Part shown: one piece after another, positions 42,214 through 55,365 of the stretch
Position numbering within the stretch: position 1 is the first letter of the stretch
Layout: each line of letters starts with the position of its first letter
Source of the DNA: Hahella sp. KA22
GTDB lineage: Bacteria > Pseudomonadota > Gammaproteobacteria > Pseudomonadales > Oleiphilaceae
Length of the DNA stretch: 64,000 nt
Direction of reading: 5' to 3'
NCBI RefSeq assembly: GCF_004135205.1
Contig: NZ_CP035490.1
Location: forward strand, 6,005,501 to 6,069,500
Translations under genes and position numbers: made by a program
The notes under the pieces: generated by a model
Databases searched by the model: none
What the model saw: the letters and a program-made list of their open reading frames with translations, nothing else
What the model was told of the DNA's origin: nothing

Positions 42214-45200
42214 ATGGTGGACAAAAAGCGCACGATCTCCTTCCTGTATATTGCAGTTCATGTTTTTGTTTTTCTGATTGGCTGTCTGTTAATTCAGACA
42301 TCCTTCGCACAAGAAGATGGCGACGTCTGGCCCACGCCGAACGGGCTTCTCGCGCCCTCGATGCTATTGACCCGCAGCTCACCGTTCGATCCTCCGGACA
42401 CTGACAGTTTCGTCGCGGACGATGGCCCTGGTCTGGATACGGGATGTACGTTCAATACCAGCCCTGAGCATCCGCTCATGATCGACGTCATGATTGACGT
42501 CTCCGTCGGGCCGGTTGACGGGGACGGCTATTTGATCGATCCCGCTCCCCTTATCGCCCAGGGAATCATTCCCGCTACCGTGGACATCATCATGCCCGGC
42601 TACGACGTGGATTATAACGGCTCACCGCCTCCTGAGCGGGATGAGGTGATTTTCAACGGGACCAGCCTGGGGCTATTGACGGGCGACAACAACGTCTGGA
42701 AGTTAAGCACCTTCACAGTGAGTATCGATAACATCAAGTTCCCGGCGCCGCCCGCGCCCGGCTCTCCGCCAACCCCGCGCGCCAACCGCATTCAAATTAA
42801 TGTCGATACGCTCAGCACCGGCCGCTGGTGCACCGCCGTCGATTGGGTTGCGCTGATTCTCCCGGTGGAGCCGAAAGTCGCGCTTACGCTGGAGCCCACT
42901 ATCTCCAACCCCGTGCGCGTCAATAACCTCGCCTCTAATGACTTGATTGACGTGATCTATCAGCAAACCAGCGACGCCAGTTGCAACCTGACGGAAGTGA
43001 TTGGGCCGAAAGACGACTACCCGTTCTCAGGTCCGGCGGAGTCCGGTTGGTTCGGCTCCGGCGAGGTTAAAATACGCACTCGTCTGGACGCCTGCCCCAC
43101 AGGCAGCCTGCCATCGGATGCGGAAGTCGAAGCCTCATGGACTATCGTCGGCACGTCGTTGCACGGAACGGAAGTCTGGTCGGGACCGGAAGGCGACATG
43201 ACGCTTACCATGCCGAACGTCATCGGCAGTTATGATGTCGAGTTCGAATACAAGGTCGACGGCGACGCCCTGCCTACGGTCACCCGCAAACTCTATGTCA
43301 CCAAGACCACGCCAATCACCGTCGGCGCTCCCCGTATTTCCTGGTACGAACACGCCACTGACTGGGCCAGCGGCTTGATTGACGAGGCCGATGTACTGGA
43401 GCACTTGCTCAGCGGCGGTTACGCCTACGGCGGCTTGAACTGGCGCTACGGCTACAGCTTCGGCGCCGTCGCCAAGTGCCATTGGACCCAGCTCAGCGCC
43501 GACCCGATTACCTGCGACTACTCCGACTGCTATGTATTCAGCGATGTGTTTGAAAACATGGCGGCCACGTTGGGAATCGGCGGCCTCAGCGCTGTTCGCA
43601 CTGACGGGCGCGGCAATGGCTTCGTCACTACTGGCGCGCCGTCGCTCGATCCCGCCTTTACCGGCAGCGCCCGCCCCTTCGCCGGCGGGCCTTATGACAA
43701 GTATGAGTTCTCCAGTCACAGCCTGCGCAGTCGCGGTTTTTTCTTTCCCGATTATTACGACGCCACCTTTAACGGCATTTATTCCGCCGTGGATGAGTTC
43801 ATCCTCTGGAACCATAACGGCGCGGTCGACTATGACGCCGACGGCGGTTATCTGGAAACCTTCGAAGGCGCCAAGGTGTATCCGGTTCCCGGCGCCCACT
43901 CTTACGATTCATGGGGGGATTACAAATACAAAGCGCCGGCGCCACTGGCCTTGCTCGCCTCAGCCAACAACGATCAGGGAGTAATGATGATAGAGCCTGA
44001 CCTCAGTATCCCCGGCGATGTCGACTACGTGACGCCGGACTCCAACAGCGACGGGGCGTATGAAGCCTTGATCGCCAATGTGCGTGTGGACGTCAATCGC
44101 GCAGGCGTCTATCTGGTGATGGCGACATTGAACAAAGACGGCGAAGTCGTCGCCAATATGCCTGAGTTCGAGTCGATGAAATTCACCCAGGACACCCTTG
44201 GCAACGCCCCGGGAACGTATACCGCCGAGCTGAAGTTTTCCGGCGAGCAGATCCTGCGCGCCGGTAAAAACGGGCCCTATGACGTCAAGGTGATCGCCTT
44301 TGCGGAAGGCTCTACGCCGGTGCAGGCCATGTTGCCCACCCCCGCGTACGCCTACACTCAATTCGGCGAAAAAGGCTCCTATCTGACTGATATGACCGAT
44401 ACGGCGGTGGATACCGACGGCGACGCCCGCTATGACTATCTTGAAGCTATCGTGCAGGCGAAAGTCGCCACAGCGGGCGAATACGTCCTGCAAGGAACCC
44501 TGATGAAGGCAGGCAAAACCGTCGCCAACACCATAGAGCGCTTCTCCCTGGACAACGGCTCCCACAGTTTGTCCCTGCGCTTCCTCGGCTCTACCATATT
44601 CCGTTCCGGCGAAGATGGTCCCTACGAGCTGGTGGTCGGTCTGTTCAATGCAGATGGAGAGCGTCAGGCGGATATTGGCGCGATGACTCAGGCGTATCAC
44701 CATGGCGAGTTCGAGGGATTACTGGACGTCACCGGCGCCTTTTCCGATCAGGGCGTGGACACCAATGGCAACGGACTGTTCGAGCAACTGAAAATCCAGT
44801 TCAACGCAGACCTGAGAGCGGCCGGAACCTTCCTGGCGTCCGCCGCGTTGCGCAACGCATCCGGTCCTTTGGCGGTCTACCTGGATGAGGTCAAGACCTT
44901 CAGCCACGGCGAACAAACCGTCACGCTGAACTTCTCCGGCCCTGAGATTAACCAGTTGGAATTGGATGGCCCCTATTTCGTCAGAGTAACGCTGCGTCAT
45001 CCCGATACACTGGAGATTATCGACCAGGTCGCCATCAGCGATGCAACCGCACCTTATAGCCACAGCGACTTTGAACCTATATCAACCCCTGGCGCCATCG
45101 TGCTGACCGGCGCTTCCAGCGACGCCGGAGTCGATAACAACGGCAACGGGCTTTTTGACTTGCTTCGCGTCAAGGTCGGCGTCTCTCTCGCCAAGTCCGA

Positions 45201-54128: not shown

Positions 54129-54436
54129 TTCATAGATCCTTTATAGCAAATAAATGGTCGAACTTTCTCGATAAGATTAATGGCCTCATAGGCCTCTACG
54201 CTACTTACTTCTTGTCCGCAAAAAGGAGGTGGCGCGCATTTTTTTATTCATCACTATCCCGCCAGCCTTAACCTTCCCATTAATCCATTTAGCATTTACA
54301 CACGGACCAATCAGAAATTGACTCGTTTATATAGGGCTTCGCATAATTGCTCCAGCAATTGGGCTGAGCTAACAACGCATGTAGAGCGTTCAACCTAACT
54401 TCCTACACATTCTAAGGACTTATCAGGGCAAACAGG
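54129..54436. other. 308-bp gap
   Basis: It holds the promoter regions of the GFA-family gene (-) and the broken EamA gene (+). It contains an AT-rich central stretch, but I see no clear operator or hairpin and no gene. Confidence 0.4.
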
Positions 54437-55365
54437 ATGCTATACAGATTTCTATGCGCTACTTTATGGGCGTCGACAGGGATTTTCGTTAAGTTTATTG
54501 ATGGTATGAGCGTTTTTCATATCATCTGGGGACGCTTTTTAGTCGCTTTCATTTTCGGCGCAGTATTATTAATCAGGCAGACAAATAGCTTCCTTCTATT
54601 TGTCTGCAACGACAGGGCCTGCACATGTCAGGCCCTGTCTCCCGCGGCTTAACGCCGCGCAGGCGCGTCCATGCGCCTGATGATTAACATGCCAATATCA
54701 TTGCCATGTTAATACTAAAAGCGAGGTCTTTCAGGCGCAGTGGGCGCTCCTCTTATCAGGCGCAAGAATTCCCATTGGCGTTGATGATGACGCTTTATTA
54801 TGTGTTGGCGACGTTTTCTTTCTATTACGCTCCTGTCGCTGTCGCCGCGCTGTTGATCGCCCTCGCTCCGCTGTTTACTTTTCTTCTGCGCTTTTTCCTG
54901 CAGAGAGAGTTCAATCAAAATGAACTCGTCGGATTTCTTGTCGCCTTTGCCGGTCTGGCGTTCTATTTCTATGGCAAAGACTATGCTGCGGAAGGTTACG
55001 CTATCAAAGATATATTACTTGGTTCTGCGCTTGGCTTGGGCGCCGCGCTTGTACTGCCGTTCCTGTTTCTTCAGCCAGGAGAGGCGCAAGTCACTCAGCA
55101 CAACCTGATATTAATCATCGGACTAGGACTGCTCGCCACCTTCCTGCCCAACTTGCTGAACAACCTGTCTTCCATGGAATTGAGCCCAACCCTGCACAAT
55201 ATCATTGGCATGACCACACCCATCTCAGCCAGCCTGATGGCCTGGGCGTTCCTGGATGAAGCTCAGGACCTGCAAGCGTTACTGGCCATCATCACCGTAT
55301 CAGGTATTTTTCTGTCCATGCGGCCTACCAAAAACCCGGTTCCCGTTGGCGCCACAAAAACCTAA
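54437..55365 (+). pseudogene. EamA/DMT transporter interrupted by a 140-bp insertion
   Basis: The first part (54437 to about 54573) encodes the opening of an EamA transporter (MLYRFLCATLWASTGIFVKFIDGMSVFHIIWGRFLVAFIFGAVLL). The second part (from about 54709 to 55365) continues the same protein with further helices to the end. Between them lies a multi-hairpin insert flanked by TTAAT at 54569-54573 and 54709-54713. Deleting 140 bases (insert plus one TTAAT) restores one open frame, reading FGAVLLILKARSFRRSG across the join. As it stands the frame stops within the insert at about 54650. The ancestral transporter was about 262 residues. The remnant may be non-functional. Confidence 0.85.
54574..54708. 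mobile_element. 135-bp insertion of five consecutive hairpins with TTAAT target duplication
   Basis: The insert is made almost entirely of inverted repeats. (1) 54577-54588/54596-54607, 12-bp perfect stem, 7-base loop. (2) 54611-54621/54629-54639, 11-bp perfect stem, 7-base loop. (3) 54643-54648/54654-54659, 6-bp stem. (4) 54660-54666/54673-54679, 7-bp stem. (5) 54683-54691/54705-54713, 9-bp stem running into the right TTAAT. The 5-bp flanking repeats and the exact frame restoration on removal indicate a real insertion event. No protein is encoded and terminal inverted repeats are weak, so it is a non-autonomous, structured element of unknown family. Confidence 0.75.

Follow-up and report, generated by a model that had tools for sequence, protein, structure and literature searches.

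Within the window, by which we mean the whole 64-kb stretch of Hahella DNA analysed here, a gene for an EamA-family transporter is interrupted by a short insertion consisting almost entirely of hairpins. The same-genus relatives G005 and G001 encode a 296-aa EamA protein at the same locus without interruption, in agreement with the first-pass annotation, which had described an insertion cleanly splitting a transporter gene. The features of the locus are as follows.

54437..54566, + strand: EamA-family transporter gene, 5' part (from ORFs and relatives' orthologues)
54567..54568, + strand: duplicated target TA, left copy (the empty site in G005 is a single TA)
54567..54588, + strand: element left end (TATTAATCAGGCAGAC...), sharing 15-17 of 22 positions, TA counted, with each of 14 IS630 ends
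54569..54712, + strand: miniature element, 144 bp (ends from 108 aligned near-full copies and empty sites)
54577..54607, + strand: hairpin H1, 12-bp stem and 7-nt loop (folding)
54611..54639, + strand: hairpin H2, 11-bp stem (folding)
54643..54659, + strand: hairpin H3, 6-bp GC stem (folding)
54660..54679, + strand: hairpin H4, 7-8-bp GC stem (folding)
54683..54713, + strand: hairpin H5, a quasi-palindrome that includes the element right end (folding)
54693..54714, - strand: element right end (TATTAACATGGCAATGATAT... on the - strand), sharing 14-18 of 22 positions, TA counted, with each of 14 IS630 ends
54713..54714, + strand: duplicated target TA, right copy (aligned copies and empty sites)
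54715..55365, + strand: EamA gene, 3' part (ORFs, Pfam match to PF00892 and relatives' orthologues)

Boundaries of the insertion and state of the EamA gene

Compared with G005, whose site is empty, the window has gained 146 bases (TA, the 144-bp element and TA, in place of one TA), and the sizes of 135 and 140 bp given at first pass are therefore slightly off, the unit being the 144 bp between the duplicated TAs. Removal of 140 bases had been said to restore the transporter frame; the number gained is 146, not 140, but since both are 2 mod 3 the argument holds. The TTAAT repeat that had been noted at the two ends can indeed be read there (54569-54573 and 54709-54713) but must be rejected as a target duplication, for the empty sites show TA alone; TTAA is instead part of the element's short inverted ends. 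These terminal repeats, which had been called poor, do exist: the two ends agree at 14 of their first 22 positions and at 10 of their first 13 (the latter by eye), and the TATTAA..GGCA common to both makes for terminal inverted repeats that are short and imperfect. The statement that no protein is encoded stands, the ORF list of the window containing no frame of 60 aa or more inside the element.

The EamA copy in the window also lacks about 35 residues of the 296-aa orthologues of G005 and G001, at a point downstream of the insertion (within 54715-55365). As judged by comparison with these orthologues the gene has at least two lesions, the insertion and the missing residues, so that excision of the insertion would mend the frame at that site and would not yield a full-length protein.

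Target site and distribution of the family

For the analysis of targets we used 108 near-full copies of 138, leaving out 30 that do not reach both ends. Conservation over these 108 begins at TATTAATC and ends at GTTAATA, and the flanks follow the palindromic preference TRYTARYA (T-R-Y preceding the TA, R-Y-A following it), which is strongest beside the TA (Y in 98/108, R in 83/108) and weaker outward. Comparison of flanks with the corresponding loci of relatives gave a 2-base gap for six insertions, with the unit taken as TA-144-TA, and for four of these six at least one relative has a precise empty site with a single TA. At the site of the window copy G005 has a single TA, and G001 has TT next to an indel of 3 bases. 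In the window's own genome (G000, one 6.96-Mb contig) the copy at 44906 has a single TA in both G001 and G002 and TC in G005, and the copy at 42679 a single TA in G005, with a gap of 0 against G001 and of 3 against G002; the G002 copy at 6628600 has a single TA in G000 and G001 and a gap of 3 in G005. The remaining two of the six show CA (the G002 insertion in L249, against three relatives) and CG (L278 against G000). Excluded as empty sites were the pairs L017/L082 (gap -9, the sequences not corresponding) and L047/L187 (gap 5, 70-81% identity). Older copies are common to several genomes at the same site, one of them being present in G000, G001, G002 and G005, and some of these shared copies have decayed or are without parts.

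Copies are numerous in G000, where the 40 candidates scored, of 159 from a DNA search, were all full or nearly full, with 95-100% identity, and where the H2 pattern, with up to three mismatches, gave 94 matches (51 forward, 43 reverse) as against none for a reversed control pattern. A total of 180 copies, with matches of at least about 60 positions, was reduced to 132 that are full-length (48 dropped), 99 that are unique and finally 44 divergent copies kept at 96.5% identity (alignment A1), from which a covariance model (R1) was built. With up to 150 candidates scored per genome, the model matched 137 in G000, 78 in G001, at least 150 in G002, 48 in G005 and 5 in G006, and none in G003, G004 and G015; over the 64-kb window its sole match is the copy described here (E up to 1). 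A DNA search of 58 genomes (that of the window and 57 relatives) found the element in five, all among the seven same-genus genomes, and in none of the 51 outside the genus. Scanning genome contigs for the H3 core yielded 37 stretches, of which eight are from Hahella sp. HN01 and, by BLAST, all contain the element, with matches spanning 113-148 query positions; among the other 29, three match solely within the GC hairpin core, over 28-41 positions, and 26 do not match (BLAST, E 0.001). Carriage by phages was considered and rejected, there being no match in a pattern scan of viral contigs.

Among full-length copies, an identical twin was found for 41 of the 89 sampled in G000, 3 of 25 in G002, and none of 14 in G001 or of 9 in G005. 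There has been a recent burst in G000. The difference in twin frequency between genomes is only indicative, because the samples are not random, good matches having been taken first in G000 and variants first in G001 and G005.

The earlier suggestion of an unnamed miniature mobile element is thus borne out by the many copies in G000 and four other same-genus genomes, the empty sites in relatives and the duplicated target. High copy number (137 model matches in G000), a length below 200 bp (144 bp) and the lack of a protein of its own are the properties of a MITE, and the copies make up a MITE family that is new and has been active recently, and that in this analysis was confined to genomes of the genus Hahella. 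No such family appears in the titles and abstract openings of the Hahella literature on repeats, insertion sequences and MITEs, subscription papers being outside the scope of this survey, and the name Hahella is absent from the main text of a 2024 review (PMC10969869) and from that of PMC3733652.

A probable IS630-family partner and the proposed mode of transposition

Of the seven same-genus genomes searched for PF13358 (DDE_3), five gave matches. They include a 1,102-bp IS with ends of about TATTAAYCNGGCATCGATATAG and a 344-aa ORF (in L184 at 1405-2439, - strand) that scores 235.5 bits against NF033545 (IS630 family transposase; cut-off 100). When the MITE was compared by BLAST with 28 DDE_3 loci, its ends were matched solely in loci of this IS, at the exact IS ends, although the matches are individually weak (E 0.03-0.6) except at L206 and L208, both of which contain a MITE remnant or copy. 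Across 22 positions the 14 IS ends agree with the left end of the MITE at 15-17, with the right end at 14-18 and with the better end at 15-18, compared with a mean of 8.2 and a maximum of 16 for 20,000 shuffled ends against the better MITE end; the weakest IS ends (15/22) fall within that shuffle extreme. The similarity is limited to about the terminal 20 bases. Complete copies of the IS number three in G000 (96-100%, with two more that are shortened), three in G001 and one in G002, which also has one that is nearly complete, with a stop. In G005 there are 28 matches, all of them fragmentary and none longer than 149 bases, and seven or more lie at contig ends; G006 has one 134-base remnant (73%), and the IS was not found in G003, G004 and G015. 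The IS and the MITE occur in the same five of the eight genomes searched, the IS in G006 as a remnant. These genomes also contain other IS630-family elements, and no MITE-end match was obtained by BLAST for the remaining DDE_3 groups, which include a group of 208-aa frames in G002 and another in G003. A resident IS630-family IS with ends similar to those of the MITE is therefore present, and on the strength of these ends the 1,102-bp IS is likely to be its partner.

At 275-340 of L326 (G000:3276174-3276239) two right ends of the 1,102-bp IS, inverted with respect to each other, form a palindrome of 66 bp bounded by TA, showing that minimal derivatives also arise from this IS. In L330 (G002:6031800-6033800) an IS630 copy is bordered on its right by a right end of the MITE type, probably a nested or recombined remnant.

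The duplicated TA, the palindromic target preference and the IS630-like ends together argue for double-strand DDE transposition. They give no support to the folding-based route, through RNA or single-stranded DNA, that the first-pass annotation had contemplated. The duplicated TA and the palindromic preference also speak against a hairpin element that an HUH tyrosine transposase (IS200/IS605 or RAYT) would mobilise in single-stranded form, in the manner of REP/REPIN. Such a route would fit the multiple hairpins of the element and the presence of Y1 proteins (PF01797) in all seven same-genus genomes searched. However, orientation is balanced, with 51 + and 45 - among 96 copies and no bias in either half of the contig (23+/22- and 28+/23-), halves that correspond only approximately to replichores, since the sign of the skew, as measured over the loci sampled, switches at about 0.5 and 4.0 Mb. 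Moreover, by BLAST only one of 20 Y1 loci (L160) has a copy of the element, at a distance of about 950 bases from a Y1 gene whose own flanking palindromes differ from those of the MITE (by eye), and the 233-aa Y1 protein of L161 has NEFNL where the 237-aa protein of L147 has NHVHM (by eye). We therefore reject membership of the IS200/IS605 or RAYT/REP types, the target being duplicated and the Y1 loci being without the element as ends, and consider single-stranded mobilisation extremely unlikely.

Two of these Y1 loci deserve description in their own right. The Y1 gene of L160 (1200-2210, in G002) lies between GGTAGGTCGGAAAAGCGCAGCGCCTTCCGAC-type palindromes and likely forms a RAYT/REP system distinct from the MITE. 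The Y1-family protein of L161 (1438-2139), with NEFNL at the HUH position, is probably not an active transposase.

The insertion in the window is very probably one copy of a non-autonomous MITE that is mobilised in trans by an IS630-type transposase, as its ends suggest; mobilisation in trans had been raised as a possibility at first pass, and the resident IS with similar ends supports it. The transposase would bind the shared terminal sequence (about TATTAAYCNGGCA), excise the 144-bp element as double-stranded DNA and insert it into a TA, and copy number would rise because the donor site would be refilled from the sister chromosome. In the weakest part of this scheme, the five hairpins would be dispensable for cutting, and transcripts through the element would be strongly folded, with effects of the RNase III or attenuation type, and may in this way limit interference with neighbouring transcription.

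The five-hairpin interior

Folding confirms the earlier description of five consecutive hairpins with arms that differ from one hairpin to the next. The stems are of 6-13 bp and the spacers of 0-3 nt, the RNA MFE is -75.2 kcal/mol compared with -38.0 +/- 3.7 for shuffles (z -10.1), and folding as DNA gives z -11.2; none of 200 shuffles was equally stable in either case. Both the MFE and centroid structures have five separate hairpins, not the single end-to-end stem-loop that is usual, though not defining, for such MITEs, and this row of independent hairpins is the unusual part of the element. Copies with additional or duplicated H1 segments occur at L100, L066, L104 and L039 and resemble products of replication slippage in palindromes.

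The conservation of this fold was assessed in the 44 representative copies, in which 92.8% of pair cells hold standard pairs (shuffles, 92.0 +/- 0.1). Changes on both sides affect 9 of 50 pairs, compared with 3.8 +/- 1.6 in shuffles and reached by 4 of 500 of them, and 17 cells as against 4.7; mean column identity is 0.944 in stems and 0.884 in loops and linkers (p = 3e-4). Folding is better than the mean of random-substitution controls in 32 of the 44 copies and not in 12 (mean z -0.67), the related copies being non-independent. A slide -3 control nearly matches the covariation, with 8 pairs and 12 cells, and RNAalifold on the same copies returned 24 scattered pairs and did not recover the five hairpins. 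In view of the RNAalifold result we rate the covariation support as modest, and modest too is the evidence that the hairpins have been kept in the mobile lineage.

The more conserved stems and the two-sided changes might also be expected of a host cassette, a structured regulatory RNA or terminator that is kept for its function and spreads only passively, by duplication and recombination. The same could be said of the depletion of copies in genes: 7 of 89 full-length G000 copies lie within an open frame that continues on both sides, whereas this holds for 114 of 226 YTAR sites taken as controls from the flanking sequence of those loci; the thresholds applied do not class the window's own copy as intragenic. 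However, passive spread sits poorly with precise insertion, TA duplication and IS630-like ends, and with orthologous sites that are empty or decayed in relatives. Nor does the window have an Rfam match at the gathering threshold or the hairpins a T-run terminator, the one terminator-like site in 54300-54900 being outside the element, and the slide control and RNAalifold results weaken the case for a conserved RNA. We consider such a cassette very unlikely.

Even for a MITE moved by an IS630-type transposase, the five-hairpin array could be functional cargo under selection, in the form of a folded RNA or DNA module needed by the element, which we regard as unlikely. Were it so, the module might render transcripts harmless, control the IS630 transposase or promote replication-coupled copying, and the MITE family would have evolved with this module at its centre and would not be a decayed IS.

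ISNpu3 is a member of the IS630 family. The relevant sections of PMC3049150 and PMC2229807 describe RUP, CIR, Correia and Nezha, together with the usual end-to-end stem-loop, and provide the following comparisons. RUP (repeat unit of pneumococcus; 107 bp, 108 copies, with IS630-Spn1 as the proposed mover) resembles the Hahella MITE in its TA-containing targets, in ends similar to those of a resident IS630-family IS and in having stops in all six frames (PMC2229807; PMC3049150), and by this analogy the Hahella MITE probably works as RUP does. The two, compared by description, differ in host and in sequence, and RUP forms one long stem-loop, whereas five independent hairpins fill the Hahella element. 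For the cyanobacterial Nezha MITE, compared by description, mobilisation by a resident IS, of ISNpu3 type, through similar terminal repeats has likewise been proposed (PMC3049150). Correia/NEMIS elements of Neisseria, with forms of about 107 and 155 bp, also have TA at their termini, and RNase III cleavage of their folded transcripts has been proposed (PMC2229807; PMC3049150); their inverted repeats are of 24-26 bp, in contrast to the 10/13 agreement at the Hahella ends. Transcripts of CIR (Caulobacter/Brucella), like those predicted here, fold as separate arms and not as one end-to-end stem (PMC2229807), but CIR has two arms and a linker, where the Hahella MITE has five hairpins and a likely IS630 partner.

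In summary, these findings add to the marine gammaproteobacteria a large MITE family with recent activity and a probable autonomous partner, and document insertions that are empty, shared and decayed across four genomes of the genus. With identical twins among its copies and a transposase frame that is open, G000 makes trans-mobilisation, which for bacterial MITEs is usually only inferred, directly testable, and the five-hairpin interior lends itself well to the question of why folding is so strong in bacterial MITEs.
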